Shown here piece by piece: positions 2,884-49,680 of a DNA stretch of 64,000 nt. The notes under the pieces were generated by a model. It ran no database searches. It had not been told where the DNA came from and saw nothing but the letters and a program-made list of their open reading frames with translations. Within the stretch, counting starts at the first letter, position 1, and each line of letters begins with the position of its first letter. The stretch covers positions 54,957,501 through 55,021,500 of the forward strand of contig CM027378.1 in assembly GCA_015680905.1 (NCBI GenBank), written 5' to 3'. Made by a program: the position numbers and the translations under genes. The DNA is from Coptis chinensis (taxonomy: Eukaryota; Streptophyta; Magnoliopsida; Ranunculales; Ranunculaceae).

Positions 2884-2923
2884 CACTACCCCCAAACAGC
2901 ACTTTGCTTGTCCTCAAGCAAAG
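2884..2923 (-). promoter_or_regulatory. E1 terminal hairpin and polypurine tract
   Basis: In element sense, a 9-bp perfect stem CTTTGCTTG / CAAGCAAAG closes a 4-nt loop AGGA (2902-2923). It is followed by GTTTGGGGGTAG and then the LTR. The purine run is the expected plus-strand primer site for reverse transcription. The hairpin is shared, with changed stem bases, by E2, E3 and E4. Confidence 0.8.
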
Positions 2924-4433
2924 AAGAGACACTAAAATAGATAAGTGGCCAAAAATGTGTAGTCCTAACTAATTCTCGTTTCGCAGAGTGCGGTTGCATT
3001 GACCATATGCAACAAGGCCTTAAACCACTAGGAATTCCCTAGTGGATGAGTTATAGCCTCGTGAGAGTTTTCCAGAAAAGATACTCACAAACTTCATTTA
3101 TACTACAACGACTCAAAGGATGTAAACTTCGTTTCCTAAATTAATCTCAGATATCCATACATCTCCTTAGCAGGGAACGAGGATTGATTTCTTTGAAACT
3201 CAAGTTAATATGTATTCAATAATTAAAACATTTACATATGATTATTCGTGCAGTGAACTTTTCATTGAAATGTACTAGCAGGGTTGTTTCTGGATCCTTT
3301 GGAGAGCATACCTAAATGGGTTCTCACAGGTATGTGTCGAAACACAATTTCACTCAAAATTTTACCACTCAGGTTTTGTTAACTCCAGTATGCAGTGGGC
3401 ACACGTTTCCTCACATCTCAATGACAGTCAGAGGAGCCGATGTCGATCAATCACGTCTACTACTTATTATCACACCACCCTACTCCTAATTGAGCTAGAG
3501 GTCTTTATTAGGTATTGTGGGGCTTAGGTGATAGTGTACAAGAAAATGGAAATGGATAATCAAAATTTATGAGTATGAGAGAATAGGGTCTTCATATATT
3601 TACACTAGAGAAATCCTTGTTTCCTTTCCTTCTTCTAACTAAGTTTTTCCAACCTTGTTCTTAAGCCTCTGGATACTGATGATTTATTTTTTATTTTTTA
3701 TTTATTTTTTATTTTTTATTATAAACATTAATATATATATATATATATATATATATGGCTTAAGAACATGATTTTATTTTTCTTTCCTGAAGCAAGTAAC
3801 TGACTTATATTTAGGACAAGTCTTTCTCTTTATTCTTCCACATTTCATCCTATTTCTCATACTCATCACTTAGGTAGGTTCTTTTATTTGGTTTAATAGA
3901 TGGGTAAGGAATTTTTGTGGTGAAAGTGAAAGGTTTGATGAAAGGTTTAGTGGAGTGACTAGCGGTAATATTTGTAATAGGTAAGAATTTTTAGCTATGT
4001 CGATCCAAAGAAGGCCTAAATTCTCGCCTAGGGTTCGGGTGGTGATCAAGTAAGTAGATGCGTGATTTCCTTTAATCGGAAAAACTACTCCTCTGTGTCA
4101 TCACACACAAATCACTCATGTCAAGGCTTTTGGTTAGATTCTCACAGGATTTATAGTTTAAGTAACTAACCGTTGGTTCCAGAAACTTACTGCTATATAC
4201 AATCGATGATACTTAGTACATGAATATTCATGAGAAGATGTATAAACTATTGCATATGTATTATCTAAAGTTTCTTAAAAACAAATCCTAATTCGGATAC
4301 TAATGTGAGATTTCTAGATAATTTTCATCATTGAAAAAGGAAACAAGACTTTGTCACTAAGTACAATTATTAATATGAAAATAAAAACAATATACAGGCT
4401 ACAAGATGCCTAATTTTTGCTACAGGTTTAAAA
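2924..4433 (-). other. E1 conserved 3' untranslated block
   Basis: There is no ORF here. In element sense it matches the 3' blocks of E3 and E4: sequence around the 42.5 kb and 49.5 kb phrase 'aggctataactcgtc', the 'ctgcacactggagt' phrase, the 'taataaagacctctagctc' phrase and an A-rich tract (here T-rich on the + strand at 3685-3720). An (AT)n microsatellite lies at 3731-3756. The block is bounded by two copies of the hairpin-polypurine module. Confidence 0.7.
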
Positions 4434-4467
4434 CACCCCCAAACAGAATGATGCTTAGTCCTCGAAG
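4434..4467 (-). promoter_or_regulatory. E1 internal copy of hairpin-polypurine module
   Basis: In element sense, CTTCG, loop AGGA, CTAAG (one mismatch in the stem) is followed after 7 nt by CTGTTTGGGGGTG. It lies about 1.55 kb before the 3' LTR, the same spacing as in E3 and E4. It could act as a second, internal plus-strand primer site; that is inference. Confidence 0.6.
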
Positions 4468-4699
4468 GATCAATAATTAAAGAGAGAAAGTACCTGAGAA
4501 CCGTGAGCAAAATTAGGGCTAGATTCTTTGAACGAGAGGTTGAAGATCATAATATATTATTCAGAAAGAACAAGAAAATGTTCAATAGCACACTAAACAT
4601 AGCACACGAAATAAAAAACCATAGCATACGAAACATGAAAAACAATAGCACACCAAACATAAGGTTTAGCTAGATATATGTACAATGGCAAACTCAAGT

Positions 4700-5702
4700 T
4701 TACCATCCAGCAGGATGTGAAGGTCTGGCGTCCTCTTTAAGGAAATGCATTTCCTTAGCATCGCGCCAATAGATAATAGTCTGCCAAATTTCTGCCCATT
4801 CTTTGTCTCCGGATTCCCTCAAATTGGTCTTCATCTTTTTGTCCTTTGGGTAACATCGAACATGCCTCAGGTATCGAGCGGGACGCTTCCATTGACGAAA
4901 CCTCAATGAGCGAATGATTCTGTTTGCTGGGCACATGGAATCCACCTTGACCCAGTCATGAAAAGTAGCTGCAAACTGTGGGAAATGTGTCTTCATGATC
5001 CGGCAAGCGGTGACTGGTAAAAGTATATATCGATCACGAAAAGTGCGAGCTCGTTTAATTTTGGAGATAACACAACCTAAAATGTTAAATAATGCATGAC
5101 CCCGAAGCTAGTAACTGAATACAACATAAGCGACCTCATTGGCAGTAGAAAAATGCCAATCTCCCATAATGTTCAGGAGTACAAATAACATTGCAGTCCC
5201 CATGTTCATGGTCATGCTTGCTAATGGAATGGTGATGTTAGCCATGGCACATGGCCATTTCCTTCTCGTTTGATCTCAAGACCATCACCATAAGAGTCGC
5301 TAAACGCGCTTGCCACTGAAAGGAACGGTAAGAATTATGATAGATGTAATGCCAAGATGCAGCAGGTTCGTGGTATGGAAGGTCCAAAGTTAGGGCAAGT
5401 TGTTGTTCAGAAAAGATATGAGGTGTGTCACCAACTCGGATTGTGAACCCGTCTAAGTAGAAACCATGCACATGGTTGAATGCTGGGGTGTCTTCCATAT
5501 TAGCATAAAAGTATGCAGCCAAACTCGGAGAATAAGTTTGGTCAGGTTGAAGAATTAGGGAAGACCACCTAATGTTTGTGATGTAATCATGGAAGAGATG
5601 GCCATAGGCATTGGAATCCATCATAGACTGAAAGGATTGCTTAGGAATGAGTTTGGGAGGTACCATGGATGATGAAAATGCAATGTTTGATGAAGATGCC
5701 AT
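4700..5702 (-). pseudogene. E1 3' ORF C, homologous to the 3' ORF of E3
   Basis: The likely start is the ATG at 5702 (MASSSNIAFSSS), because the E3 homologue starts at the matching place. Recognisable blocks in order: a Ser/Pro-rich N-terminus, QSFQSMMDSNAYGHLFHDY, YSPSLAAYFYANM, a segment around MTMNMGTAMLFVLLNIMGDW just past the first open stretch, then CRIMKTHFPQFAATFHDW, ANRIIRSLRFRQWKRP and a Trp/Lys-rich end. E3 has the same order at 46978-47880. The open frame stops near 5238 and again near 5100, so this copy is broken. It sits where Athila elements carry their second, envelope-position ORF. I see no convincing signal peptide and do not claim an envelope function. Confidence 0.62.
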
Positions 5703-5935
5703 GGTGGATGAAGTAAAGAAATGGGTAACGATACCGGCAACTGGATGGAAAAATGAGTATGTAAGAAAATAGACCCTCCTGTAGCACATGTTAAAATTAT
5801 ATTAGTCACAACGGAAATGATGACAATCCTACTAAGCATTTCATACAAAAGAAGACAAAAAGATAAGACAAAATACATAGTATGATGGAAAAACGTAATA
5901 ACATATATGATTATATACTTATTGACTTAGTAATA

Positions 5936-7016
5936 TCATGGATTCTTATATTGATCTTGGAGATGCATATTTTGCACCAGACTGTTTAGGTCTTCTATTT
6001 GTTGGCCGAGTTGCATCTGAATGTCCCCTTGGCTGGCAGAGAGTACAGTTTGATTTTCCATTAGGAGAGCGTGATTTTGCAAGGATTGAGAATGATTTTT
6101 CCAATATCTCCTCCTGTTCAACATCATGCGTTGCTTGACGATCTTGGAAATCCTGAAGAGTTGTGATGATGATATTCTGACGAGCGTGTAGTTCCCTCAA
6201 ACCTTGATGAAGAAGTTTAATGCCTTCCATGGGATTAATAATATTCAGCATGGCATTTTCATCAAATAAATGGTCAGAATTTGAGCTTGGGTTGTTCTGC
6301 TCATCTATCAGAGTATCAGGGGTCCAAAAACCAACGGAGTAGTTTGTTTGGAGTACCTTTATATATGCTCTTTGAAGGGGTGTCTCTGGAGAAATTATTG
6401 GATAACCTCAACGCATCATAATCTGCAGGTTACTAAAAGTGGGTAGGGGTGCTGACCTTCTTGTTTTCTTGGTGATTACATTCCAGAGGTGTTGGATTAG
6501 ACAAAAATCATCTCTTTGAGTTTGCAAAATCCAAAGTAGGTGAAGTTGAGGCTTTGTGACTTCTGATTGGTGTGATGTACCTACCACATTATGTCCCAAC
6601 CAGTGGAGCACAACACATTGATTCTGTTTCAAAGAGCGTTGAAGAACAATGTGATGTGTATTTTCGACGTCGCGATGAGATACGGTAGCTCGTAGTAAGG
6701 TTTTTGCGGAATCAAATGATGACTCTTGAAAAAGGGACTCCTGGGTATTTATTGGGATTTGAAGTATGTCGGAGATCATTTCCTTATTCAATTCCAATCT
6801 TTGTCCATAGGCATTGAAGTAGAAATTTTCATCTTCATATCCGCTAAATTGGTAGAACATCAAAACCAATTCTCAGGAATAACCAGCTGCTGAATGATAT
6901 AGCAGAGGCGTCCATCCGCGACGTATGATTTCGGTGTCAAAATAAGGAGAAAACCGACCCTCTTCGAAAGTTTTCAGGTAGTCTTTCTCTGCCGTTATTT
7001 TTCTTGGTTGAGCCAT
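5936..7016 (-). pseudogene. E1 3' ORF B, plant-transposon-protein-like plus coiled coil
   Basis: The ATG at 7016 (MAQPRKITAEKDYLKTFEEG) lies about 55 bp after a good TATA box. The protein resembles ORF A at 17.3-18.3 kb: YQFSGYEDENFYFNAYGQ then ISDILQIPINT, RSLKQNQCVVLHWLGHNVVG and PQLHLLWILQ align by eye with matching blocks of ORF A. It looks like the 'putative plant transposon protein' family found 3' of pol in Athila-type elements; function unknown. A second part (6251-5936) is Gln/Leu/Ile-rich and coiled-coil-like, ending QIEDLNSLVQNMH. One stop after SAAGYS, a TGA at 6408 and a frame change near 6120 break it. Confidence 0.62.
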
Positions 7017-7071
7017 TACTGAGGGAAGGATGGTGAAAATTGTTTGAATAAGAATGGCTGAAAAAGAAGAG

Positions 7072-7079
7072 ATTTATAG
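7072..7079 (-). promoter_or_regulatory. TATA box before 3' ORF B
   Basis: On the minus strand GGCTATAAATCTC is followed by a pyrimidine-rich leader and the ORF B ATG at 7016. Spacing suits a plant core promoter with a start about 30 bp downstream. Confidence 0.5.
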
Positions 7080-7689
7080 CCAATCTATGAGTCTATACCA
7101 ATCTGGAGTCCAAGTGTAGTTAATGACCCATGTGATTATGAACAAAGATCATAGGGGATCCATTGAAGAAGTCTTTGTCATGTCAGATATCCAATGACAA
7201 TTAATGAGATGGTTTAATGTTAGAAAATACGGAGGAAAGTTTCACAGGGTAGTTAGACTTACACGTAATTTCAGAAATGATGATCATAACTCAGTAATAG
7301 AATATGGATAGAATAATCGAGCTGCATGTGTGACAAGTGTTATGTGTACCTTGTAGCGTGCGCGATTTTCTCTGAACACTATGTGTATCCATTAATTATT
7401 TTGGTGAGTTTTGGATGGCCTTTCTTTGTTATGGTTTGTTTATTTATTTACTTATTATTATTTTTGTTATTATCTTTATTTTTTTATATTTTTATATTTT
7501 TATATTTTTTATTTTTTATTATTTTTTATTATTTTTTTAGAGAGGAAAAGACAACTAATATACACAAATATTTAATACGGAACTTCTCCATTTAATACGT
7601 AACCCGTACAAATGTGTGAGAATTATTTAACACACCATACTAATATACAAAATGAAAATCGGAAAAAAAAGAAAAACGGTTACATAGAT

Positions 7690-7989: not shown

Positions 7990-8005
7990 GGGCTTTGAGA
8001 GTAGG

Positions 8006-9664
8006 TGACACTGCCTCTTTTTGTGTATGTATGGTGTATGGGTGATGTAGATAGATGATGGTCGTTGAACAAAATAGAAGCGTATCAAAACCTAATTATC
8101 CCTCAATAAGTAAAGAATGAGTAAGGTATCGTTTCACTTTTAAGTGTATGTTTATATGAAGGACATGATTGGAAAGGGGGTTTGAGGGATTAAAACTATT
8201 ATTATAGATATTGTAGATTCTAATCTTAAACTAAACTAAACTAAACTTATACTAAAACTAAGAATTGGAAATAGGGAGAGAATATGAGAGAGATAGATTC
8301 AAGAGATTCAAATCCACCAATGCTTTTGATTCAATGACCTTTTGCTTCATGTTGTTCTCCAAGTAGACTACAATCGGGCAATCGAGCGAGTGTCGATGCC
8401 CTCTTGGATGAAACATCGTTAACAATTAACTCTACTTAAGGTTGTTCCTATGTTCATATTACTAGTATCTTCTTTCCTTTTATGTGAGCTTAGGCATTCA
8501 ATGAATCACCATCTAAGGCAAACACAAGGAATACTTCCCTTACTCTAAAACACTACACAATTAGAAGAAAAGTAGAGAATAATAGTATAATATTCAATTA
8601 CAATAAATAAAACTCTATTCTAGCATTATATTCAATTGCAATAAATAAAAGCATGTTACTAGCAAATATTCAATTGCAATAAATAAAACCCTAAACTAGC
8701 ATAATATTCAATTGTAATAAATTAAAACCTTAATCTATACTTCCATCCCCTGGTGTGGGCAATGGAACTAATAACTAAAAACATAAAGAACTAACCTGAT
8801 TGAAGAACACCATAAACCAGAAGAATCATTAAACCTTAAGAACCGGCTTCATCTCCTCCCTTGAAGGAGAAGATTAGCCTTCCATATAGAAAGAAGAACA
8901 CGAAGAACGAGAAGAAGAGTCGAAGAACATAAGACTAGAAAGACTAATTTATTAAGACTCAGCTAGTTAAAACCGATCTTTTATTATTAATCTCTCTCTA
9001 CCTCAAGTTCTGGAGACAAGAATATAAGTGAATTGGCCCCTTACATGAGGCACTTAGGTCCTCTATTTATAGGGGTTACAATGAGCTCTAGAAGCATTCC
9101 AAACCGTCATTTGTTTCCTAATACAAATAGACTTCTTCCAGAGAGTCCGACCGTCTTCAAAACCGAGAAGGAATTGGCTACAAGAGTCGATTCATGCGTC
9201 CCGACGCATTATTCATGCGCCGAGACTTAATCAATGCATCGGATGCTTTCGATCTATCGTCCCCAGACCTTAATCAATGCGTCTGGGCCTTTCGATACGA
9301 TAGGCCCTAGACGCATAAGCCAATTTTCTCTCTTCTGCTCTATCCTTCTATCCTCTTTTGTGGGCTTTGGTCCAAGCAACGAATCCTTTGGCCTTGGGCT
9401 TCCAAATAGACTTTAAAATAGGTCCAAGTCGCATCTTTAACAGCTCCAATTCCTTGGACTTCTCCATGATTGTCCACGGGCTTCCCATGTGATCCTTAAT
9501 GCTCCGAATTGCTCCATTTTACCCCTTTTTCTCTAATATTCTACAAAACTCACTTTTTCACCTGTAGAATCTTAAAACACAACTTATAAACACTATTAGT
9601 CCACTAAGATGGCTAAACAAGAGGCATAATCGAGGGTTAAATAGCACTTTTTGAGCACTTATCA
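8006..9664 (-). repeat. E2 3' LTR (left copy)
   Basis: Starts TGACACTGCC, ends GCACTTATCA. It is nearly the same as 15318-17000 except for a CpG-rich block at about 9180-9325 that differs strongly. It contains a 38-bp tandem repeat. An open frame at 9033-9230 lies inside this LTR and is not considered a gene. Confidence 0.92.
8593..8744. repeat. 38-bp tandem repeat in E2 LTR, four copies
   Basis: Copies start TTCAATT at 8593, 8631, 8669 and 8707, exactly 38 bp apart, each with the core CAATAAATAAAA or a close variant. The same four copies occur in the other LTR at 15928, 15966, 16004 and 16042, so the expansion predates the E2 insertion. Confidence 0.85.
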
Positions 9665-9702
9665 CAACTCCCAACTAGCCATTTGCTAGTCTCTTAGCAA
9701 AT
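9665..9702 (-). promoter_or_regulatory. E2 terminal hairpin and polypurine tract
   Basis: In element sense, stem ATTTGCTA / TAGCAAAT closes a 6-nt loop AGAGAC, followed by AGTTGGGAGTTG and the LTR. Stem bases differ from those of E1, E3 and E4 but pairing is kept. Confidence 0.75.
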
Positions 9703-10546
9703 AAGATAAAAAATAGATAAGTGATCAAAATCACATCCTAATAACAAAAATAAAATCCTAACTCATTTTCGCGAGGCATCAGCGATTGCATTTACCATAT
9801 GCAACAAGGCTTTAAACCTTTAAGTTCCCCAAAAAGAACGAGTTATAGTCTCGTGAGGGTTTTCAGGTGATTTACCCACAAAATCAATCAATAGCATGTT
9901 CAAGAATGATAGTATTTTTGAGAGAGGGAAATTCCTTACCCACTTAGTGCTTACTCCAATAGACAATCTCCATTGCTAACTACATTCTTTGGAAAGACTC
10001 ATAGATTATGATGAGAGATAGTAAAATTGACAAAAATTCTCAATCAAGGCTTATGTGTGTACTTAGTCAATTTTCTATACTCTCCTATCCAAGAAACGGA
10101 ATCCCTAGTTTACCTTTAGACAGATAATCTCGACTTTCAATCCTCACCAGTCATACTCTCAACAAAGAATCTCTCAGAAGATGGTCTACTATTTTACCTC
10201 ATATATGTGGGGAAAAGAATAATGCATACGAACATCCCACATACTACCTTGAAAAACAGACTTCTGAATAAACGTAGTCTCATGGAAAGAATGTCAATCA
10301 CATATGAAGTGTCGAGTCATTCACTTTAGCATCCTCTCACCTATTCTAGACTTCGCACTACCCAGAAGTAGTGATAAGTCATGGGTTGTAACTTGGCTTG
10401 GGTATTGGTTTATGAAGGGAAGGTAAAAAGGATTCTAAGGTTGTTTTTGAAAAACACTAAGGGTTTTGCTTCTTTCTTTGGAAGATTTCTTCAAATTCTG
10501 TATTGCAGAGAAAATTCTTCCTTTGTCTTAGCTTTTTTCCATCCAT

Positions 10547-11437: not shown

Positions 11438-11472
11438 CCCTCCCCCTACTTATGCATGCATTGACCTCAATG
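11438..11472 (-). promoter_or_regulatory. E2 internal copy of hairpin-polypurine module
   Basis: In element sense, CATTG, loop AGGT, CAATG is a perfect 5-bp stem. After 9 nt it is followed by AGTAGGGGGAGGG. The equivalent stem is CTTTG / CAAAG in E3 and E4, so the T-A pair has swapped to A-T. Confidence 0.6.
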
Positions 11473-15317: not shown

Positions 15318-17000
15318 TGACCTTGCCTTTTTTTGTGTGTGAGATGTGGTATATGGATGATGTAGATAGATGATGGTCGTTGAATAAAAAGAAGCGTATC
15401 AAAACCTAATTATCCCTCAATAAGTAAAGGATGAGTAGGGTATCGTTCCACTTTTAAGTGTATGTTTATATGAAGGACAGGATTGGAAAGGGGGTTTGAG
15501 GGATTAAAACTATTATTATAGATATTGTAGATTCTAATGTTAAACTAAACTAAACTAAACTAACTAACTAAACTTATACTAAAACTAAGAATTGGAAATA
15601 GGGAGAGAATATGAGAGAGATAGATTCAAGAGATTCAAATCCACCAATGCTTTTGATTCAATGACCTTTTTGCTTCATGTTGTTCTCTCCAGTAGACTAC
15701 AATCAGGGCAATCGAAGCGAGTGTCGATGCCCTCTTGGATGAAACATCGTTAACAATTAACTCTACTTAAGGTTGTTCCTATGTTCATATTACTAGTATC
15801 TTCTTTCCTTTTATGTGAGCTTGGGCAGCTATTCAATGAATCACCATCTAAGGCAAACACAAGGAATACTTCCCTTACTCTAAAACACTACACAATTAGA
15901 AGAAAAGTAGAGAATAATAGTATAATATTCAATTACAATAAATAAAACTCTATTCTAGCATTATATTCAATTGCAATAAATAAAAGCATGTTACTAGCAA
16001 ATATTCAATTGCAATAAATAAAACCCTAAACTAGCATGATATTCAATTATAATAAATAAAAACCTTAATCTATACTTCCATCCCATGGTGTGGGCAATGG
16101 AACTAATAACTAAAAACATAAAGAACTAACCTGATTGAAGAACACCATAAACCAGAAGAATCATTAAACCTTAAGCACCGGCTTCATCTCCTCCCTTGAA
16201 GGAGAAGATTAGCCTTCCATATAGAAAGAAGAACACGAAGAACGAGAAGAAGAGTCGAAGAACATAAGACTAGAAAGACTAATTTATTAAGACTCAGCTA
16301 GTTAAAACCGATCTTTTATTATTAATCTCTCTCTGCCTCAAGTTTTGAAGACAAGAATATAAGTGAATTGGCCCCTTACATGAGGCACTTAGGTCCTTTA
16401 TTTATAGGGGTTACAATGAGCTCTAGAAGTATTCCAAACTGTCATTTGTTTCCTAATACAAATAGACTTCTTCCAGAGTCCGACTTCGTCTTCAAAACCG
16501 AGAAGGAATTGGCTACGATTATTCGATTCATGCGTGTCGTCGCATTATTCATGCGCCCCGGACTTAATCAATGCTCGTCTCGGGCCTTTCGATCTATCGT
16601 CCTAGATGCAATCAATGCATCTGGACGCTCGATACATGCGTCCCAGACGCATAAGCCGATTTTCTCTCTTCTGCTCTATCCTTCTATCCTCTTTTGTGGG
16701 CTTTGGTCCAAGCAACGAATCCTTTAGCCTTAGGCTTCCAAATAGACTTTAAAATAGGTCCAAGTCACATCTTTAACAGCTCCAATTCCTTGGCCTTCTC
16801 CATGATTGTCCATGGGCTTCCCATGTGATCCTTAATGCTCCGAATTGCTCCATTTTACCCCTTTTTCTCTAATATTCTACAAAACTCACTTTTTCACCTG
16901 TAGAATCTTAAAACACAACTTATAAACACTATTAGTCCACTAAGATGGCTAAACAAGAGGCATAATCGAGGGTTAAATAGCACTTTTTGAGCACTTATCA
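15318..17000 (-). repeat. E2 5' LTR (right copy)
   Basis: Starts TGACCTTGCC, ends GCACTTATCA, followed by the GTAGG duplication. It is the partner of 8006-9664. It carries the same four 38-bp repeats at 15928-16079. Confidence 0.92.
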
Positions 17001-26510: not shown

Positions 26511-27954
26511 TGATGTATACTTCTTTACTACTACTTAGAGGTTTGAACTCTCTAAATTGATGCAAAAGCAACTCAAGGTCCTTACTCACGATCTTCGATT
26601 TCGTAGAGTTGGAATAAGGATTCGAACCAACCTAAAGTCTAGGACAACTACAAATTGGTTGTTACAATAAAGGGAACTAAGGAGTAAGGTTATAATACTA
26701 ATGCTAGGTTTTCTTTCCTACACAACATTAAGAAAAACATTAAAGTTTGAATCATGCACTTAATACAAAAGACAATTTACTAAAGAAAGAAAAGTGGAGA
26801 GCTAATCCTCCTCATGTGATACTAACGTTTAGTTGTTGATTTGAAAAGTTTATTTATTCTTCCTAGACTCATAGACAAGCCCCTAATGGAAGAAAACTTG
26901 ATCCCTAGCATATATGGCTCACTTAAGAGCTCATACATGTTAGCAAGTGGAACCAAGCAATGACTTATCTCTAAGCTCATTGCTTTGATTCCTAACTAGA
27001 CTCTACACCAACTATCATTTTGGGATAGGATGTAGAGTTAGTTGTTCTTCCTAAAAACCTACCAAACCAATAACAATTGTTTTTTCCTCATATGAGTTGG
27101 ATTAACTCCCCAAAAGGGAAGTTAGCTCATGATCATTGAGACAAGGAATTTAAACTAGAGAAACAAAGAAAGAGAGAAAAAGGAAGAAGATAAACAATCA
27201 AACTCACTTCTATTTATTTTCTAGAAGAAAACAAGTGTTTCCTCCATTAAAACTATTACAAGCTTCTTACCAAAACTAAAAACTAACTTATGATTTTTTT
27301 CACTAAGGAACTAAAATAATGTCATGTAAGGAAAATAAGTCAAGGGAGTAAATGGAGTGTCCCCCACCCTTGTCTAATTTCTTCTCCATTTGAGGGAAAT
27401 CTCATTTCCTCCCACGTGAATCATCAAACCATATTAATTCATTTTTATCCACCACATTAAAACAAAGTGACACCTTGCATTTTTTTCACTATTAACACCT
27501 AATCTAATTTATTACATGCAAGGTGTCAACTTTGCACCAATAATTTGTTATTTTTGTCTTGACATGCTCCTTGATTGATGACTCATCCAATCTTGTGGCC
27601 CCGCATAGTGGGTCCATGTGCAGTCCAGTGGCAGTCCGGTATTTGGGCAGTTTTACAACTCCTCACCTATGCATAGATTTCATCACCCTGATTGTCTGAG
27701 CAGCTCTCTTGTCGCATTCGGAGTCCTGGTTCGAGAGGTAGGAGCTTTGGAAGTTTGATGCTTCTGTGCGGATATGGAAGAATTCATATATCGCCGTTCC
27801 TCGTGCTTTTATCGCAGTTTAACCAATATTTCCATGTTTCTGCAAATACCTGCAAAAGTATGAAAACATATTTATTTTATGATTATTAAACACATAATTA
27901 ACCAAATTTATATGTCTCAATGGGGTTTCATAATACACTTTTGGGTGCTTATCA
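26511..27954 (-). repeat. E1 5' LTR (right copy)
   Basis: Partner of 1436-2883. It starts TGATGTATAC and ends GCTTATCA, followed by CTTGC at 27955-27959. Confidence 0.93.
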
Positions 27955-27959
27955 CTTGC

Positions 27960-30195: not shown

Positions 30196-31705
30196 TGATA
30201 AGAGCCCAAAACTGTAGTTTTAACCCCTTTAACAATATCGTTTTTGACCAATTATGTGATTAATAAATAAGAGTTAATATTGTTATCGTGTTCTTATGTA
30301 TTTCAGGCATTGAAGTCGAATATGTGCAGAAATGCGTCCCTTTTGCGAGATAAAGAAGCAAAGGTTGGTTGCTAAAAAGTTCTATGATTAAAGGCCAAGG
30401 TTCAAGGAGAAAAAGCCTTTTTAAAAGCCCGGTCAAAGCTGAAAAGTCAAAGTCAATGCGGGCAGAAATAGCGCACAAAAGTCAGCAGAACTTTCGAAAG
30501 TCGTATATTTGGACTCAGACCTCGGAATTGGGCCTACCTTATGTCAAAACGTCCAACTTGGAAAGAGATTTCTAATGGTCCAAGCTTTGACCCTATCAGA
30601 AGAGCGAAAGTGGACAAAAAAGCTATTGAAGTCATTTCCAGCTGAAATCCCCTTTGTAGACTGAAGTAATGAAGTTTTGGGCTCGATTTTCCGGCCTAAA
30701 ACATGGCTCCTCAGCCCATGCACAAATTTGTAGATCTTTTCTCCTCCATATCAAGAGACAAAAACTTAGCTCTTAAGTTACTTAGAATTTTAATTAGCTT
30801 TACTTAGTCTAGATCCAATAGTTAGTTTTAGATCTAGTTAATTAGCATCAAATTAGTGTTTAAAATAAGATTTAATCTTTAGAATCAATAATTAGTTTGT
30901 ATTTTAAGTTTTAGTTTCTAATTCAATATTGAATTCATAGATTTAGTTTGTCTTCATTTATAATTAGTTATTCATAATCTTAGTTCTACATTAGTTGTAA
31001 TTTCAGTTTTAATTCATGTTGATTCTTAGACTATTTGTTCTATTCGTTTAATCAAGTTTATTTTAATCAATTTTAGTTTAATTTAATTATGTCTTCCTAT
31101 TATTGTTTATTGTCAATGAATCCAATGAAACTAGGCAAAAAACTCCATTAGAAGAGGTTAAAGAAGCCATGTGAGGATGATTGCTTGTTAGAATAGTTGT
31201 TATTTAGAATAGAATTTCAAGTTCATTATTATGAGTGTTTAGAGATAAACCTCATAATAATGAACTAGAGTTTAGAGCTACCATCAAAGAGATTTGTGGT
31301 GGAGCTAAGCTCTCATGCTAGTGGAACCTTGATTCGAGAGGACTTGGTATTCACTAGGGATCAATATTCGATTCGATGACTAACTAATAGGCAATCTAAT
31401 TGCATGGTGGAATTTCCCCCCTCTATGTTCTTCCAATTTATTAAATTCACCTTTTAATTGCTTAGTTAAATTAGTTAAATTTATAATTAGTTTTAGTTTA
31501 AATAAATCACAATATTACTCTCATTGTTCTCACCATTGTTTCCTTGTGTTTGATTAATTGAATTCATTTAAGTCTAGATAGATTAAGAGTGGAACGATTT
31601 CGTACTCTATATATTGAATGAATATATATGTGAGAGTAGGAAATAAATAATTGATACCGTAAGAATAAAGTTAGAGTAATCTAGTTGAGTTTTTACGGGT
31701 TATCA
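30196..31705 (+). mobile_element. Solo LTR of the E3/E4 family
   Basis: A lone 1510-bp LTR: it starts TGATAAGAGCCC, ends ACGGGTTATCA and is flanked by CATGG at 30191-30195 and 31706-31710. Its start and end match the E3 and E4 LTRs. No internal sequence is left, so it is the product of LTR-LTR recombination. It lies in an intron of PMD gene 1. Confidence 0.9.
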
Positions 31706-31887
31706 CATGGTGATCCAACTCATTGAGCGAATGGCAAACTATTTACTTTGAATGCAGTAAAAATGTAGTTAGTTAAATTTCTTATAAGTCTCGCTCATAA
31801 GGAATTGTGTCATTGTGGTTTTTTTTTTTGTATGTTGTTTCATGGCTTATTTTATTAGTCTTTCTCACGGAAGTCCATCTATTACAG

Positions 31888-32502: not shown

Positions 32503-32732
32503 GTTTGTCGACTGGTACGGAAGTTATGTTGAAAATAACCCAAGAACAGAAATCAAATCGCCCGTGTTTAATTCTTGGGCATACGTAAGAACATTGAACT
32601 CAATTCCACATACTTATAGTTTATGAGGGCAATATATAGTTTATAACACCTGACATATAATATTACTATTTTTTTTCCCCATAGAGATACATATCACCTG
32701 AGACGAAAGACAAGAAGTTAAGAGAAAAGTGT
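31888..32732 (+). pseudogene. PMD gene 1, exons 8 to 10a (start of Ulp1-like part)
   Basis: Exon 8 (31888-32403) encodes GRITRSKKGFF, a Lys-rich stretch EKNKKKRISTERNKK, an acidic VIDLDDFTS and ELERLLHNNMLSGN. Exon 9 (32504-32584) encodes FVDWYGSYVENNP. Exon 10 starts at 32695 (RYISPETKDKKLREKC) and is cut by E3 at 32732. The 'L..nnMLsgn-vdwY' pattern is like the region that opens a Ulp1 protease domain. Stops at 31932 and 32022 and a late frame change in exon 8 break it. A long T run (32468-32499) lies in the polypyrimidine tract before exon 9. Confidence 0.68.
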
Positions 32733-34190
32733 TGATAAGTGCCCAAAACTATAGTTTTACCCCTTAACAATAATACTTTTAGACCAATTATACGAGTAAT
32801 AAATAAGAGTTAATGCTGATTACGTGCTTTTATGTATTTCAGGCATTGAAATTAATTATGTGCAGAAATGTGTCACTTTTGTGAGATAAAGGAGCAAGGG
32901 TTGGTTGCTAAGAAGTTCTATGATTAAAGGCCAAGATTCAAGGAGAAAAAGCCTTTTTAAAGCACGGTCAAAGCTGAAAAGTCAAAGTCAACGCGGGCAG
33001 AAACAGCGCACAAAAGTCAGCAGAACATCCGAAGACTGTATCTTTATACTCAAACCTCAGAATTGGGCCTACCTTATGTCAAAACGACCGCCTTGGAAAG
33101 ATCTTTCCAATGGTTCAAACCTTGACCCAATCAGATAAGCAAAAGTGGACAAAAAGTCTATTGAAGTCAAATCTAACTGAAAAAACCTCTGTGGACTGAA
33201 GAAATTGGGTTTTGGGCTCGATTTTCCAGCCCAAAACATGGCTCCAGTCCCATGCACGAAATTGGGGATGTCTTTCTCTTCTTGAAGGGAGAAAAGGAGG
33301 TGGACTAATTCGCTAGACCTAGATTAGAAAATAAAGTAGCTTAGACTCCATTAATTTGTTTTATTACCTTATTTTTAATTTAGTTATTGAATCATTGATA
33401 ATTCTTCATTAGAGTAATAACAGTAGTTAGTTATTCATAAATTTAGTTTTGGTTTATTAAATTACTTAGATCTAAATTTAGTTATTAGTTGTTATCATTT
33501 CTTAATTATTAATTCAGTTGTGAATCCTTGATTAGATCAAATTAGCAAATTTATAATCTTTATATCAACACTTGCTGAAATTCATATAGAAATAATAGTT
33601 TAATGATTCAAGGCTAAAACCTCCATTAGAGGGGTTTGAGGAAACCTTGATGAAAACTTGATTGTGTTAGCTTAGAAATTGTTGTGATAATCTATTCAAT
33701 TCTAGAAAGTAATTAGTTTACCATGAGAATGGGTTTGATTGCTTCACATACTAGTTATTATTTGGTAGAGATTGTCATGAATAATTAAGGATTAGAAATA
33801 CCAATTTGTTATGCAAAAGCATTGCAATTTGGATTACGATGAATCTTCGCTAGTTAATTAAGTCGAGTTAAGGTGGAATCAAATCCCCCTAATTCCTCCT
33901 CATATAGTCAAATTAGCAATTCCGTAGTTTGAATTATCGTATCCTGATTAGTAGTTTCCCATCCTAGTATAATTTCTATCGTTACTCTCATTAACTTTGA
34001 TAGACTGATAATCGTAGTTAACTTAGAATTCTAAAGAACTCGGAGTGGAATGCATTTTCTATTCCAACTATATTGCAATAGCATCGAGAGTAGAAAACTT
34101 TGATAACATAAGCGTAAATTAGTTTTAGTTTTACTTGCGTTTGAGTCTCGTAGTTTATGCGTAGGTAAAACTATCATTTTACTGTTATCA
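32733..34190 (+). repeat. E3 5' LTR
   Basis: Starts TGATAAGTGCCC, ends TTTACTGTTATCA; partner of 49681-51138, same length. Confidence 0.92.
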
Positions 34191-34192
34191 AA

Positions 34193-40116: not shown

Positions 40117-41003
40117 AAATAGGGACAACTAGGTTTTCATGTAGAAGGTGAAGTTAAGTCTATTGAGAGTTTTGTATATCACATTAGTGTTTCTGACGAT
40201 CTCGTCCTTACACTAGTAGATACCCCTCTTATGGAAGAAGAAAATATCACAATTTTGACTCCTTGAACATAACTGAACTAGCGAAAGAATTTTCCACCCT
40301 GCCTTCCGACACTACAAGAGATGGAGTAAACCTCACAATAGACGAGATAGATGAATTCCTCAAAGATGGAGATGAATACCATAATTATATGGATGCGCCA
40401 ACCTAGATGAGGAATTCGACGAGTTTCTAAGAGCCTGTGATGATCCACCCTTTCAAGCACTGCCTAGAGCACCACCCTACCACCAACTACCTGAGCTAAT
40501 CCCTCACAGAATCCAATCATTCTTCCCACCCGTTTCTCCTAACACTTATCCACATTCCAAGTATCTTCCACAACCATCCATTTTCTCACGATCATTCACT
40601 TGGACATCTTTTCGTTCAAAGAAAAAGAAGAAACTTTATGCTCGATTAGGTTCTAGATCCATTATAATTCACTCCCATTCTACTAAGTCATGCCATAGGA
40701 AATCTTGGTGCTTAATTTTGACAAATGGTGCATTCCGTGTTAACTATTTATGGAAAGATCCACAATTATTTAGATTATTGATATATGGGAAACTACATGT
40801 TAATACATATATATATCACATTAAGTCTAGGGAATCTGACTTTAAAAGACCCATGTTTTTGTACAATACCAACTTTCTGGAGTATAGGCCAAACAAAATT
40901 TTCAAACTTAAAAAGAGTTTTCCAATTTTGTTTGGGGGTGGCGTATTTTGGTATTTCATTTCAAATCTTTTTGCCACCCTTTCCTTATCATGTTTACTCC
41001 AGT
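40117..41003 (+). pseudogene. E4 Lys/Arg-rich post-protease domain, remnant
   Basis: Where RT should start there is instead decayed sequence leading to PQPSIFSRSFTWTSFRSKKK, KLYARLGSRSI, CHRKSWCLIL and AFRVNYLWKDPQLFRLLI. The same segments are intact in E3, so this is an inherited domain and not random DNA. Much of the acidic part seen in E3 is missing or frameshifted here. No known family recognised. Confidence 0.6.
40825..40857 (+). promoter_or_regulatory. Conserved post-gag motif of E4
   Basis: GTCTAGGGAATCTGAC followed by TTTAAAAGACCCATGTT; counterpart of motifs in E1, E2 and E3, at the end of the coding part. Confidence 0.65.
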
Positions 41004-41137: not shown

Positions 41138-41171
41138 CTTTGAGGACAAAGCGTTCAATTGTTTGGGGATG
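41138..41171 (+). promoter_or_regulatory. E4 internal hairpin-polypurine module
   Basis: CTTTG, loop AGGA, CAAAG (perfect stem), then GTTTGGGGATG. It lies about 1.55 kb before the 3' LTR. Confidence 0.62.
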
Positions 41172-42680
41172 GGATAGAAACATTTGCAAATATTAGGCAC
41201 TTTTAGGATGTAAATTACGCACTTTTCTTTATAAAAAATTAAAAATCATAAATATTGTTTATACTAAGCACTTAGTGATAATAGTATTATTCCCTTCTCC
41301 ATGATGATATTAGTCTAGAAATCTCACGTAGTACTTGAATTAGGATTTAATTTTTGAAACATAGATTAAAACGTAGGTAATAGTCATTACATCTTTTCAC
41401 GAACATCTTGCATGAGCATTTTTTATTGTACTTGGCGGTATTTTTCTGAGACCTAGGTTTGAGTACTTAATACATATCCTGTGAGTATTTAGCCTAAAAG
41501 CCTCATAAGAGTGAAATATCTGAGTGATGACACAAAGGAGAAGTCAAATATGAGTAGAGAAATCACACATCCACTTGCTTGATCACCATACCATATCCTA
41601 AGCGAGAATTTAGGCCCTCTTTGGATCGATATAGCCAGAAATTCACACCTATATTAAATTTATTATCCTCTAGTTGCCCCCACTAAGACTTTCATTAGTC
41701 TTTTCACAAACCAAAAATTATTTACCCAATAAAACAAAATTAAAAAAAATAATAAAAAAAAAAAAAACCATTCTACCTATTTGGATAAGTCTGAGAAATA
41801 GGATGAGTGAAGAAAAGAGAAGAGAAAAACCTGTGCAAACAAAAAATTAGTTAATTGCTTCAAAAAAGAAAAAGAAAAGAAAATTTCCATAAAAAAAAAA
41901 AATAAAAGAAAAACTCTAAAAATAGAATAAAAGGAGTCAAAAAGCCAAAATAAAAAGGCTAAGGATGGAAACAAAGTGTAGAAGCAAAAGAATAAGGTTT
42001 TCTCTAGTTACATAATATGAAGACCCTACTTTCTCAGACTTGTCTTTTTGAATATCCATTTCCTTCATTCTTTAACCAACACCTACGCCCCGTATCACCT
42101 AATAAAGACCTCTAGCTCAATTAGGAATAGGTTGGTGTGATAGTAAGTGGTAGATGTGTTTGATTGACCTCGGCTTCTTTGGATTGTCATTGAAATTGTG
42201 AGGAAACGTGTGCCTACTGCACACTGGAGTTAGCAAACTTGAGTGGAAAAATAAGAGTGTTATGTGTTTTGACACATTCCTTGTGAGAACCTACTTAGGT
42301 ACGCTACCCAAAAGTTTCAGAAACGGACCTGCCATTGCATTTCATATCATAGTTCATTGTATAGTTGTTTTTCTTAAGATTATTTGATTGTTATGCATGT
42401 ATTTGTTTAAGTTTTAGAATGATCATTCTTGTTTAAATACTAGTGAGATGTATAGATCATTGAGACATAAATAAGGAAACAATAGTTTTATTTCTTAGTC
42501 GTTGTAGTATAGATGAAGTTTGTGAGTACCTTCACTGGGAAACTCTCACGAGGCTATAACTCGTCTACTAGGGAATTCCTAGTAGTTTAAGACCTTGTTG
42601 TATATGATCAATGCAATCGCACTCGGCGAAACGAGATTAGTTAGAACTCCATTTTTGGTAACTTATTCTAATTTTTCATA
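41172..42680 (+). other. E4 conserved 3' untranslated block
   Basis: No ORF of substance. A-rich tract at 41742-41768 followed by a purine-rich GAAAAGAGAAGAG stretch. Parallel to 48138-49641 of E3 over its length and to 2924-4433 of E1 in part. Confidence 0.7.
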
Positions 42681-42719
42681 TTTGCTTGAGGACAAGCAAA
42701 ATGCTGTTTGTTGGTGGTT
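42681..42719 (+). promoter_or_regulatory. E4 terminal hairpin and altered polypurine tract
   Basis: Stem TTTGCTTG / CAAGCAAA, loop AGGA, then GTTTGTTGGTGG before the LTR. The G run is broken by two T where E3 has GGGGG, which may weaken priming. Confidence 0.72.
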
Positions 42720-43921: not shown

Positions 43922-43926
43922 ATAAT

Positions 43927-44238: not shown

Positions 44239-46120
44239 ATGTTTCCAAGTCAAGCGATACCTAATCCTAAAACAACAAACACAGCCTTTGAGGTAAACAG
44301 TAATACTAGTAAGGAAAATGCAAACGTAGGTGAGCTAAATGCCATCACCACTCTTCGTTCTGGCAGAGTGGTTGATAACACCATAACTATGTCTGTAGTT
44401 ACCCCACCAGTAGCCCCTACACCGGATATTGTACTAGATACCGAAGTAATAATTGAAGATCCTACCCTAGTAGAGGTACTAGTTAAACCACAACCTAAGA
44501 AACAAAAAGCCAAGGTTAGACATCCTATTGATCCATATGCTAAATATAGAGAGAAACCACCGTTTCCCCAGAGATTAGCCATGTTAACCAAGGATACGAA
44601 TTTCGATGAGATTAGGGAGGTTTTCAAAAATCTAACGATAAACCTACCCTTTCTTGAAGCGATTAAAAAGTTACCTCACTATGCTAAGTTTCTTAAAGAG
44701 TTGTGCACTACTAGGCGTAAAACAAATATTCCAAAAGACGCCTTTCTAACTGAACAATTTTCAATTTTAACCGAACATAATGGAATCGTTAAGTACAAGG
44801 ACCCTAGTCGTCCTACTATACAATGCACCTTAAGAGATTCTCACACGATGACCGCCTTATTAGACCTGGGGGCAAGTGTTAACTTACTCCCGTATTATTT
44901 ATATAAACAAATAGGTCTACAGGAAATGCAACCTACTAAAATGACGTTGCAATTAGCTGATCAGTCTATTAAGTATCCTAAGGGTTGAAAACGTGCTTGT
45001 TAAGGTTCATGATTTCTACTATCCTACTGATTTTGTTATCCTCGATATAGAAGTCGCTAACGATTTTGTTATGATAATTTTAGGGCGCCCTTTCTTGGCT
45101 ACTGCCAACGCGCTCATAAATTGCAGCGATGGTTTGATGTCCATGTCTTTTGGCCATCTTTCTGTTGAGGTAAATGTTTTTAAAATGACGAAACAGTTCC
45201 CAGATACAATTTTGGATGGAGAGGTTAGCATGACCGAGAGCTTAGCTCAAGATTATTTCAAAATCACGTTTCCTGATAATCAAATGCACAAATTCCTTTC
45301 CTTTGGAAGTTCCAACTTCGACAAGAACTCCCTTGAAGTCGAAGAAAATTTCTTTCGACTCTCTTGCAACTCTTCCTTGCCACCTCGCGAGTCCCTCCCT
45401 GTCAACATCCATTTATCCCTTGACGCTATAATGGAAGATGAATTTTTCACCCTCTATCCTAGTGATTCTTTTGACCCACCTATTGAGGAATGTCTTGTAT
45501 ATCTCAAGGCTTCTGATAATCTACACCTGAGAGCTCTAGCCGAGCCCCATTCATCCACCTCACATCATCCTGTCACTCATTCGTCTTCTATCACCAATTT
45601 TCCCCACCTTCCACCTTTTCAAAGGAACCTTGAGTTTGCACTTGACCTTCTTGTTTCTCCTGTGCTTCATGATTTTCTAAATCCTCCTAATATGGAAATA
45701 ATTCCCAAGGAAAAGGCACTTGACACCTTCATTTTCAGAATTGAGACAGTTAATACCTACACTATGAATGCGTTTTGTTCTAAACCTACATTCCCATTTT
45801 TTCCATTCTTTCCTTTTAAAACTTATACATATCCAACATATCTTCCACAAACATCCATTTTCTCACGATCATTCACTTGGACACCCTTTCGTTCAAAGAT
45901 GAAGAAGAAGATGTATGCTCGGTTACGTTCTAGGTCTATCAGACTTCGCTTTCATTTCACTAAGTTGCGTCATAGAAAATCTTGGTGCTTGATTCTGTTT
46001 GGGGGTGCATTCCATGTTAATTATTTATGGCAAGATCCACAACTATTTCGGTTGTTGATCCACAACTGGAGTCTCGGGAATCTGACTTTAAAAGACCCAC
46101 GTTTAAAACAAATTTTCTAA
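44239..46120 (+). pseudogene. E3 protease joined to a Lys/Arg-rich domain
   Basis: The protease part has FPQRLAMLTKDTNFDEIREV, ALLDLGASVNLLPYYLYKQI and, after a small deletion near 44988 that shifts frame, FYYPTDFVILDIEV and IILGRPFLATANALINCSDG. From about 45200 the open frame goes on for some 300 residues with no RT motif: acidic and Ser-rich first, then Pro/Phe-rich (FPFFPFFPFKTYTYP), then strongly basic (TPFRSKMKKKMYARLRSRSI, LRHRKSWCLIL) and FHVNYLWQDPQLFRLLI. E4 keeps the last part. The basic run could bind nucleic acid or act as nuclear import signal; that is inference. Stops at 46118. Confidence 0.78.
46071..46103 (+). promoter_or_regulatory. Conserved post-gag motif of E3
   Basis: GTCTCGGGAATCTGAC then TTTAAAAGACCCACGTT. 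It overlaps the last codons of the upstream ORF, so it is both coding and conserved in position with the non-coding copies in E1 and E2. Confidence 0.65.
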
Positions 46121-46977
46121 ACTCTGTTCTATAAAATTTGTTTGGGGGTTGGGTGTTAGTATTTCCATCCTAAACTCTGTTCTATAAATTTGTTGTTTTG
46201 ATATTGTTTTTAGTAAATTAGATGTTAAGTTGTTAAATTCAGTAGTTAAATTTGAATTCTGTAGTTAATTGTTATTTAAATTTCTATTTTTATTTAAACT
46301 GGGTTTTGTCTAAGCATGCGATGATTTTTGCGTAAATCCCACCTTCCTGAATTGTTTGGGGGTGGCATTATTATTTTTAGCATTGCTTTTATTTGATCCA
46401 CCATTTTGGAAGTAATTTTGCAATGAGTTGGTTGAGAATGTTGCCAATATTGGTGTGGCTAGGATTAGATATTGTGGTAGGATGAAATTTTAATGAGTTA
46501 GGAAGTTGCTATTCTAAATTCAATCTAAAAGATATTAGGTTTGTTTTGGAATAATGAATCTGGGTTGTTTCCGTTTTAGGTTTTGGAAATATTTTGTTTT
46601 CGGCAATTGCCTTAAAATTTTTGGGCAACTTGTTAATTCGTTTTAGAAACTAAAACCTTATATATACTTGATTCATTCTACACACAAAACCCACACAATT
46701 CACTTTCTCTCTTACCCTGAACCTCTACATTTTTCCTTTTTTTTTTCACTTCATCTTGCTCTTCACACACGGAGCGCGCCCCGTGCCCTACATAGCCTAC
46801 TTCAGAGCATGCCTAGCGCTAAAGATAATGTAACTCGAATTTGACAGGAGCGCGACCCGTGCCCTACCAAGACCATTTCTGGGCGCACCCCACGCCCTGA
46901 CCTTCGTAGCCCAGAAATTTTCTAATTTTTTGTGAGTTTTCTAGGGTCGTTTGCAGCTCTTCTAGAGAGTAGTTATT
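46121..46977 (+). promoter_or_regulatory. E3 internal promoter-like region before the 3' ORF
   Basis: No ORF. Two GTTTGGGGGT purine runs (46140 and 46355). TATATATA at 46659-46666 is followed by a CT-rich leader (CACTTTCTCTCTTACC) and GC-rich repeats at 46770-46910 like those in the E4 leader. Then comes the ATG at 46978. The layout suggests a separate transcript for the 3' ORF. Confidence 0.45.
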
Positions 46978-47880: not shown

Positions 47881-48101
47881 GATGACGTTTAAACGTTGGA
47901 GATAAGGTAAGTTTTTAGTTTCAGTTAGTGTCTGCTTATGTCCCAAGCAAATTAATTCTTGTTATCCCCATAACGGGTGAAACTCATATAGAGTTGCGTC
48001 TGTTTTTCTTTATCTATATTAGTATGTTTTAACCTTGTTTTGCAAATGTTCTAAATTTTCACGCGTTTCCATGGTATTTTTCTACCCTTTTTATTTTAAT
48101 A

Positions 48102-48137
48102 CTTTGAGGACAAAGAATGCTTCTTGTTTGGGGGTGG
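48102..48137 (+). promoter_or_regulatory. E3 internal hairpin-polypurine module
   Basis: CTTTG, loop AGGA, CAAAG, then GTTTGGGGGTGG, about 1.54 kb before the 3' LTR. Confidence 0.65.
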
Positions 48138-49641
48138 CATAGAAACACGTGTAATTAAGGCATCTGTTAGGATATAGATATGTACAATATGCACTTGTTT
48201 TCTAGCAAAAATTTCAAAAATAAAAAATAAAATAAAATATGTTATGCTATACACTTAGGAATATTGGTATTGTTTTCTTTTCCTATGCTCTTAATAATCT
48301 AGAAGTCTCACGTTAGCTTTTGCATTAAAATAGTTTTTAGAAACTTAGGTTAATATGTAGGTAATAATCTTTGCATCTATCTATAAATATATTATATGAG
48401 TATCTATGATTGTTTGGCAGTAAGTTTCTGAATTCTAGGCTAGAGTACTTATTCTACAAATCCTGTGAGAATATAGCCTAAAGCCTTATATGAGTGAAAC
48501 ATTTAAGAAATGACACAAGGGAGAAGTAAAATCCGGATAGAGAAATCACATGTCCACTATACCATACCCTAAGCGAGAATTTAGGCGCTCTTTAGATCGA
48601 TATAGCCAAAAATTCAAACCTTATGAAATTATTTTGCGCTAGTCTCCCCTCTAAGCCTTTCTTTCATATACCACAAATCCTTTACCCTTTTACAAAAAAA
48701 AAACAAAAAAAAAAAATCAACCTACCCATTTTAGAATGAGTCTGAGAATAGGATGAGTGAAGAAAAGAGAAAAGAAAAACCTATGTAAACAAAAATTAGT
48801 TAGTTGCTTCAGAAAAGAAAAAGAAAAGAAGCTTCCATCCAAAGAAAAGAAAAATAAAAATAGAAACAAAATAAAAACTCCAAAGATAGAATAAAAGGAG
48901 TCAAAAAGCCAAAATAAAAAGGCTAAGGATGGAAACAAAGTGTAGAAGCAAAAGAACAAGGGTTTCTCTAGTTACGTAATATGAAGACCCTATTAACTCA
49001 TACTTGTCCTTTTTGAATATCCATTTCATTCCTTCTTAAACCATCTCCTAATCCACGCAACACCTAATAAAGACCTCTAGCTCAGTTAGGAATATGTTAG
49101 TGTGATAGTAAGTGGCAGATGTGTTTGATCGACTTCGGCTTCTTTGTGTGTCATTGAGATTGTAAGGTAAAGTGTGCCCACTGCACACTGGAGTAACGAA
49201 ACTTGAGCGAAAAAATCAGAGTAGTTTTTATCTTGCCATTTATGTGATGACCTACTTAAGGACACTATTCTGAGTTTTCAGAAACGGATATGTTAGTGCA
49301 TTTCAAAGTATTTACTTATTGTATATATTTTTATTCGTAGATGGTTGATTATTATGCATATATTAGCTTAGGTTTCGACTTGATTATTTTGTATTCATTG
49401 CTAGTGAGATGTATAGATAATTGAGATATAAATAAGGAAACAATAGTTTTATTTCTTAGTCATTGTAGTATAGATGAAGTTTGTGAGTACCTTAATTGGA
49501 AAACTCTCACGAGGCTATAACTCGTCCACTAGGGAATTCCTAGTGGTTTAAGGCCTTATTGCATATGGTCAATGCAATCACACTCGGCGAAACGAGATTA
49601 GTTAGAACTCCATTTTTGGTCACTTATTCTAATTTCTCATA
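48138..49641 (+). other. E3 conserved 3' untranslated block
   Basis: No gene. A-rich tract 48691-48717; close match to the block of E4, partial match to E1. Confidence 0.7.
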
Positions 49642-49680
49642 TTTGCTTGAGGACAAGCAAAATGCTGTTTGGGGGTGGTT
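49642..49680 (+). promoter_or_regulatory. E3 terminal hairpin and polypurine tract
   Basis: Stem TTTGCTTG / CAAGCAAA, loop AGGA, then GTTTGGGGGTGGTT and the LTR. Confidence 0.8.

Follow-up and report, generated by a model that had tools for sequence, protein, structure and literature searches.

The window analyzed here is a stretch of 64,000 nt of the Coptis chinensis genome (C2:54957501-55021500, in an assembly of 935.6 Mb), in which two nested pairs of long terminal repeat (LTR) elements were found, E2 lying inside E1 and E3 inside E4. In all four elements, a hairpin and a G-rich tract precede the 3' LTR, and a second copy of this module stands upstream. With a probability of about 0.4, we propose that the modules are structured cis-acting signals for plus-strand priming of a plant Ty3/gypsy (Athila-like) element, in which the hairpin would stall the reverse transcriptase (RT) for a cut at the junction between tract and LTR. 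Each module comprises an outer inverted repeat, an inner hairpin (usually with an AGGA loop), a short spacer, a G-rich tract and, in the terminal copy, the LTR start. Judged from its position and sequence, the tract is a putative polypurine tract (PPT) priming the plus strand.

Terminal modules

In E1 (minus strand), a hairpin of 9 bp with an AGGA loop (2902-2923) is followed by the G-rich tract GTTTGGGGGTAG (2886-2897), and the LTR begins with TGATAAG at 2883. In E4 (plus strand), a hairpin of 8 bp with the same loop (49642-49661) precedes the tract GTTTGGGGGTGG (49667-49678) and the LTR start at 49681. The E3 hairpin (42681-42700, plus strand) is the same 20-mer as in E1 and E4; it is followed by a decayed tract (GTTTGTTGGTGG, 42706-42717) and by the LTR start at 42720. 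The E2 hairpin (9681-9702, minus strand) has 8 bp and an AGAGAC loop, and is followed by the tract (GGGAG, 9672-9668) and the LTR start at 9664. A hairpin with a G-rich tract adjoining the 3' LTR of the four elements had been described in the initial annotation, and all eight modules, terminal and internal, were found where it had placed them.

The terminal hairpins are far beyond chance. The 20-mer of E1, E3 and E4 occurred three times when up to three mismatches were allowed, each time exactly, against 0.00 expected from 100 shuffles. When the 267 G-run sites of the window were ranked by stem length, the terminal hairpins of E1, E4 and E2 were three of the top four; that of E3 falls outside these sites because its tract is decayed (TTTGTTGGTGG). 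Furthermore, 24 perfect hairpins with a 4-nt loop (at least 6 bp, with a G-run just downstream) were present in 264 kb, and the nine that had an AGGA loop were all located at these modules. No match to Rfam was obtained over the whole window at gathering scores.

Internal modules

The internal hairpin of E1 (4451-4470, minus strand) is paired at six of eight positions when read as an 8-pair stem, its core (4454-4467) having one mismatch, and its G-rich tract lies at 4433-4444. E2 has a 5-bp stem with an AGGT loop (11459-11472, minus strand) and the tract AGTAGGGGGAGGG (11438-11450). On the plus strand, 5-bp stems with AGGA loops are found in E3 (41138-41151, tract GTTTGGGGATGG at 41161-41172) and in E4 (48102-48115, tract GTTTGGGGGTGG at 48126-48137). 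The second module announced for all four elements, including the mismatch in E1, was thus confirmed, as was its spacing of about 1.55 kb in E1, E3 and E4 and about 1.78 kb in E2: the distances between terminal and internal hairpins were 1545, 1543, 1540 and 1771 nt for E1, E3, E4 and E2, respectively. A 5-bp stem was rejected as evidence on its own, since 59 of the 267 G-run sites have at least 5 bp; what gives the internal hairpins weight is that they recur at a fixed place with the same loop and closing pair.

Additional sense tracts resembling GTTTGGGGGTG (GTTTGGGGG) were observed further upstream, one in E3 (40930-40941) and three in E4 (45997-46008, 46140-46151 and 46354-46365). Such tracts gave 10 matches in the window at up to one mismatch, compared with 0.22 expected, and the copies with the exact core in E4 were five in sense and none in antisense. 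Related copies also have similar upstream tracts (including L014-L038), and the extra tracts are devoid of the GAGGAC hairpin.

Relatives in the same genome

A sample of 326 kb, made up of the window, 200 kb around it and 62 kb from three other chromosomes, was scanned for the module with mismatches tolerated. The scan covered the whole sample minus its last 2 kb and located terminal modules by their hairpin, so that hairpin-less terminals were missed. It yielded 14 terminal and 14 internal modules once an internal row lacking a G tract (C2:55008721) had been removed. One internal copy with a mutated hairpin was added from the alignment of spacers, and one terminal copy was added downstream of the C1 internal copy; a terminal hairpin that is half deleted (C2:54858171) stands outside these 15 terminals. 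The counts of energy, distance, per-copy pairing, variability and outer repeats leave out the C1 terminal copy.

An internal partner was present for 14 of the 15 recognisable terminal modules. The absence of the internal copy from most relatives, which would have spoken against the initial annotation, is thus not what is seen locally. Eleven pairs were separated by 1527-1598 nt, one by about 1523 nt, the E2 type by 1771 nt and the C1 pair by 2748 nt. For the sole terminal without a partner (C2:54941173, E2 type), homology to the E2 spacer ends before the expected internal site. The 14 terminal copies had at least seven perfect pairs in 13 cases and an AGGA loop in 12. Finally, when the 200-kb flanks were searched with a pattern free of the hairpin (tract plus LTR start), eight loci were obtained; one was not a junction, and the seven that were LTR junctions all had the hairpin.

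Stem pairing and sequence conservation

Seven stem types were aligned from the loop: the E1/E3/E4 terminal type, the E2 terminal type, four internal types and a chromovirus type described below. Paired with their own arms, they formed 51 of 56 pairs, whereas foreign arms formed a mean of 3.6 of 8, and among the 5040 possible arm assignments only the true one reached 51. These figures concern types that were noticed because of their pairing, with two decayed internal variants (C2:54858171 and C2:55103969) left out and with the E2 terminal type registered by its loop; the homologous register gives fewer double changes. Between the internal stems of E3 and E4, pair 7 has changed on both arms. Hence the compensatory stem changes reported earlier are supported locally, as both sides change and each arm fits its own partner.

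In ten copies of the E3/E4 type, variable cells numbered 1 of 200 in the hairpin, 3 of 190 in spacer and tract, and 87 of 1800 in the upstream flanking non-coding sequence. Of the stretches measured, the hairpin varies least (Fisher p 0.0016 against the upstream sequence).

These data also bear on the idea that the GAGGAC core is a coding relic of the end of an ancestral pol frame (L-E-D-K in Athila-like elements, F-E-D-E in the chromovirus type), the stems being incidental. The L-E-D-K frame is indeed open for at least 33 codons upstream and through the tract in 8 of the 14 terminal copies, but it closes within 9-18 codons in the other six, and in the E2 type a stop directly follows the core. 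The spacer has no long frame common to the four elements, and coding does not explain stem changes on both sides. We regard a coding relic as very unlikely.

Outer inverted repeat

An outer inverted repeat surrounds hairpin and tract, and in terminal modules the LTR start itself forms its right arm. In E1 (minus strand), the left arm (2940-2960) faces a right arm at 2864-2882, in the 3' LTR start, over 19 aligned positions. The arms lie at 9716-9730 and 9649-9663 (in the LTR) over 15 positions in E2 (minus strand), and at 49601-49628 and 49682-49709 (in the 3' LTR start) over 28 positions in E4 (plus strand). Internal modules have arm sequences different from the terminal ones that are still complementary, for example at 4506-4517 and 4409-4421 in E1 (minus strand) and at 48060-48074 and 48138-48151 in E4 (plus strand). 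The outer repeat, like the further upstream tracts, goes beyond the observations of the initial annotation.

Compared with single-base shuffles, the repeat reached p ≤0.03 in seven of the eight window modules, the internal module of E2 giving p 0.49. When 1500 randomly placed sites with identical geometry served as the reference, the 95th percentile was reached by 12 of the 14 terminal copies and by 12 of the 15 internal ones (the 99th by 5 and 1, respectively), and against dinucleotide shuffles p was ≤0.05 in 12 of 14 and 11 of 15; in all these counts, copies of the same family are not independent. Covariation of the outer repeat is not claimed, as terminal arms pair equally well across families: the left arm of E1 scores 37, 33 and 38 with the right arms of E2, E3 and E4, and 26.5 with its own.

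Since the right arm of the terminal repeat is the LTR start, the inverted repeats might act as DNA rather than RNA, for example by binding integrase where the LTR ends or by serving as hot spots of insertion; internal copies, whose arms differ in sequence and which lack an LTR end, speak against this role, and we hold it to be highly improbable.

It might also be that only the terminal module is functional and that the internal copy is the relic of an older element end, sequence having been gained between the relic and the LTR. Internal hairpins are weaker and more decayed, no LTR follows the internal copies, and the internal outer repeat of E2 is within chance (p 0.49 and 0.56). A relic would hardly be expected to keep hairpin and tract in 14 of 15 cases at a near-constant distance, to exceed the 95th percentile for its outer repeat in 12 of 15 copies, or to change on both sides of the stem, as at pair 7 between E3 and E4. 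We consider this explanation unlikely.

The hairpin as a putative stall site

The proposal that the hairpin stalls RT starts from its distance to the LTR. From the base of the 8-pair stem, this distance was 19 nt in 12 of the 14 copies. Both E2-type copies gave 17 nt from the 7-pair base, E2 itself being at 16 nt from the eighth-pair base, and in one stem-mutated copy 23 nt from the shortened stem. The two chromovirus-type sites give 17 nt if the LTR starts at the TG chosen by eye. In HIV-1 RT, 17-18 bp separate the polymerase site from the RNase H site, and the enzyme cuts 17-18 nt behind the primer end (PMC3627382). RT is described, in the portion consulted of a second article, as stalling at the bases of stem-loops, pausing raising RNase H cutting (PMC3187697), and for HIV an accessible excerpt proposes that a pause lets RT cut at the PPT-U3 junction (PMC3185654). 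The hairpin was proposed as a stall site because its 16-19 nt to the LTR are close to this distance in HIV-1 RT and because such stalls and pauses are reported.

In the proposed mechanism, RT making the minus strand would copy the LTR start and then the tract, and would stall at the base of the hairpin. The RNase H site of the stalled enzyme would then be near the tract/LTR junction, where a cut would end the primer and thereby fix the 5' boundary of the LTR. The outer repeat would keep this domain apart from its surroundings. About 1.5 kb upstream, the internal copy would provide another, weaker start for the plus strand, its weak hairpin stalling RT less. The module looks cis-acting because E2, E3 and E4, which have no detectable RT or integrase, keep both copies. 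The suggestion that the hairpin defines the primer ends is therefore plausible for intact copies, given their 16-19 nt to the LTR. The related suggestion, a second plus-strand primer in the internal copy, fits the extra PPT mentioned for Athila4 and Calypso in the text seen of PMC2829016, and is made less likely by the weakness of the internal hairpins.

Several observations weigh against this reading. The step from distance to mechanism is our inference, and the distance may simply be the tract length plus a short spacer. The comparison covers about four families and its yardstick is HIV-1 RT, not an Athila RT. If the two bases that separate LTR and primer-binding site (PBS) in all four elements have a counterpart, trimmed at the other LTR end, the distance to the primer end becomes 14-17 nt. 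A conserved loop sequence is unneeded for a stall site, and the apparent conservation of the hairpin is inflated, as terminal modules were mostly located by means of it. The internal copies are less convincing structures: at least five perfect pairs were present in 11 of 15 and an AGGA loop in 12 of 15, pair 6 of the 8-pair reading was missing in 13 of 15, and predicted hairpin energies were -2.0 to -3.6 kcal/mol compared with -6.4 to -10.0 kcal/mol for terminal copies; the internal hairpin of E1 is not predicted to form. The folding energies of whole modules lay only modestly below those of shuffles (z from -2.35 to +0.39). Among the window modules, the lowest-energy fold contained the inner hairpin in all four terminal and in one of four internal modules, and the outer stem was absent from that of the E3 and E4 terminal modules.

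Conserved upstream block and palindromic hairpin

Before the terminal module, a non-coding block of about 150 nt is common to all four elements, lying approximately at 2950-3102 in E1 and 9745-9893 in E2 (minus strand), and at 42508-42660 in E3 and 49469-49618 in E4 (plus strand). A 108-column window of this block is 91-94% identical between E1 and E3/E4, whose whole spacers are 71-72% identical; the value for E2 in the block is 71-72%, and outside it the E2 spacer gives only weaker matches. The block is common to E1 and E2 despite a gag identity of 31%, and several short hairpins lie inside it. Either a separate RNA signal or exchange between families may account for it.

The block includes a palindromic hairpin of 21 nt, CCACTAGGGAATTCCTAGTGG in E1 (3025-3045, minus strand), with counterparts on the plus strand in E3 (42565-42585), where C-G is replaced by T-A on both sides at pair 2, and in E4 (49526-49546). 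It is perfect in 8 of 14 copies. In the E2 type, both sides have changed at pairs 3 and 4, two other pairs are lost and the palindromic core is absent. Because of its GGAATTCC core, this hairpin is a candidate for a dimer signal, and a better one than the terminal hairpin about 100 nt downstream.

A packaging or dimer role of the module hairpin had been suggested in the initial annotation. In an explanation of this kind, the module hairpin would serve to package the RNA or to bind nucleocapsid, its AGGA loop offering purines to the zinc knuckles of Gag, and the palindromic hairpin about 100 nt upstream would aid genome pairing. The AGGA loop recurs (in 12 of the 14 terminal copies and 12 of the 15 internal ones) beyond what a stall site needs, non-autonomous elements that depend on others for packaging retain the module, and the palindromic hairpin folds at -12.2 kcal/mol, two copies pairing at -32.4 kcal/mol. 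Packaging would not need the short, fixed distance between hairpin and tract seen in every measured copy, and the E2 type has another loop (AGAGAC) and no palindromic core. On this evidence we judge a packaging role unlikely.

Related modules beyond this genome

A scan of bacterial genome contigs gave one plant-like stretch, in the assembly of Candidatus (Ca.) Burkholderia humilis, which we take to be a leaf-nodule symbiont of Psychotria. The plant retrotransposon-like DNA in this assembly (L011 and L065) is probably host contamination. The stretch carries an identical 20-nt hairpin before TTTGGGGGAG and, on the opposite strand, GAATTTCG-AGGA-CGAAATTC before a purine tract. When the assembly was searched for CGAGGACG with AGGGG, one second such site and one unrelated GC-rich match were obtained, with one match in the backward control. 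The form was found in none of 100 relatives of this assembly, which was thus the only one of 101 to have it.

We assume that these 3' ends (L011, minus strand, and L065) are of the chromovirus type. Like the modules of the window, they have an 8-bp hairpin whose loop is AGGA, and the presumed LTR start follows after 17 nt; unlike them, their stem sequence is unrelated and their purine tract is different. The chromovirus-type site may overlap the end of pol. We find it doubtful, though worth stating, that an AGGA hairpin 16-19 nt before the LTR is a molecular ruler common to Athila-like and chromovirus-type lineages, in which RNA structure and not the purine tract alone would set the LTR ends, the second copy of Athila-like elements being an internal plus-strand origin.

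In viral contigs, matches to hairpin plus tract (10) and to the chromovirus form (26) were rejected, as their context looked phage or bacterial and no LTR context was seen. A third pattern gave no matches there, and no relative of the E1 RT was found in these contigs.

Elements and other features of the window

E1 (minus strand) has LTRs at 1436-2883 and 26511-27955 that are 97.9% identical, is flanked by the target-site duplication (TSD) GCAAG and is interrupted by E2, whose LTRs lie at 8006-9664 and 15318-17000 (minus strand, TSD CCTAC). E4 (plus strand, TSD AGTGT) has LTRs at about 32732-34191 and at 49681-51139, its gag region being interrupted by E3 (plus strand, TSD ATAAT), whose LTRs start at 35389 and 42720. 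On the minus strand of E1, pieces of gag, protease, RT and integrase follow in that order, which together with LTRs and TSD identifies a Ty3/gypsy LTR retrotransposon. E2, E3 and E4 match the gag and protease of E1; the RT and integrase pieces of E1 gave no match in them at E 0.01, and these three elements therefore look non-autonomous. Between E1 and E2, the gag pieces share 31% identity. The relatives listed for the E1 RT (at least 120) are plant proteins and bear no lineage names; we take the elements to belong to the Athila lineage. Frames of E1 downstream of pol (5238-6872, minus strand), one with a weak, below-cutoff match to PF20167, sit between pol and the internal module, which is thus not at the end of pol.

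In all four elements, TGGCGCCG or a near form is found 2 nt past the LTR and is a candidate PBS. Its partner in the Athila lineage is presumably the aspartate transfer RNA (tRNA-Asp). Use of tRNA-Asp is stated for Diaspora in the part seen of PMC1142308.

Elsewhere in the window, a partial further LTR related to those of E3 and E4 (30196-31712) is interrupted near 31228-31519, and no internal region was seen with it. An open frame at 57850-58659 (minus strand) contains a plant mobile domain (PF10536, E 6e-36). Finally, short repeats of a single family, direct as well as inverted and giving numerous self-matches on either strand, occupy 55803-56180, 59836-60094, 61424-62195 and 63727-64000.

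Comparison with known systems

PPTs have no common consensus (PMC3185511), so that reverse transcription has long posed the question of how RNase H recognizes the exact end of the primer. If our proposal is true, a conserved hairpin at about the polymerase-RNase H distance would make part of this question testable in a simple RT assay. The hairpin would also serve as a structural mark of true LTR ends in plant genomes, and a module kept in RT-less elements hints at what such elements must retain to be copied by others. In the literature searched, with most subscription papers outside reach, no description of an inner hairpin in gypsy elements was found. Among the matches listed for the motif strings in literature text, none was tied to retrotransposons by its title, and none remained when the strings were combined with "retrotransposon". 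An internal PPT is already known; what may be new is the hairpin itself, its distance to the LTR and the presence of an outer repeat in a gypsy element.

The closest known case is that of Athila4 and Calypso, for which the part seen of PMC2829016, citing Wright and Voytas 2002, gives one extra PPT in the linker. Like the elements studied here, these env-containing Ty3/gypsy elements have a further PPT in the stretch from pol to the 3' LTR, and the internal tract occupies this position in all four of our elements; unlike here, the description available has one extra PPT and mentions neither hairpin nor outer repeat.

For Sireviruses, the accessible text reports several PPTs, together with an inverted repeat where PPT and LTR meet, the repeat being present also in almost half of classic copia elements (Bousios 2010, PMC2829016). 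The extra upstream tracts of E3 and E4 resemble these PPT clusters. Sireviruses differ in being Ty1/copia elements and, as far as that text goes, in a left arm that borders the PPT, in upstream PPTs without the repeat and in having no separate inner hairpin described. The Sirevirus arrangement, an AGGGGGAG octamer 10 bp upstream of the LTR with a bordering inverted repeat, was not found here: in terminal modules the tract resembles GTTTGGGGGTGG or reads GTTGGGAG, and the inner hairpin stands between it and the left arm.

Lastly, the central PPT of HIV-1 and the internal PPT of Ty1 similarly provide, according to the same partial source (PMC2829016), an internal plus-strand start besides the terminal one. 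These internal PPTs lie in coding sequence, whereas those of the Coptis elements lie in DNA without a long reading frame and bear a hairpin.

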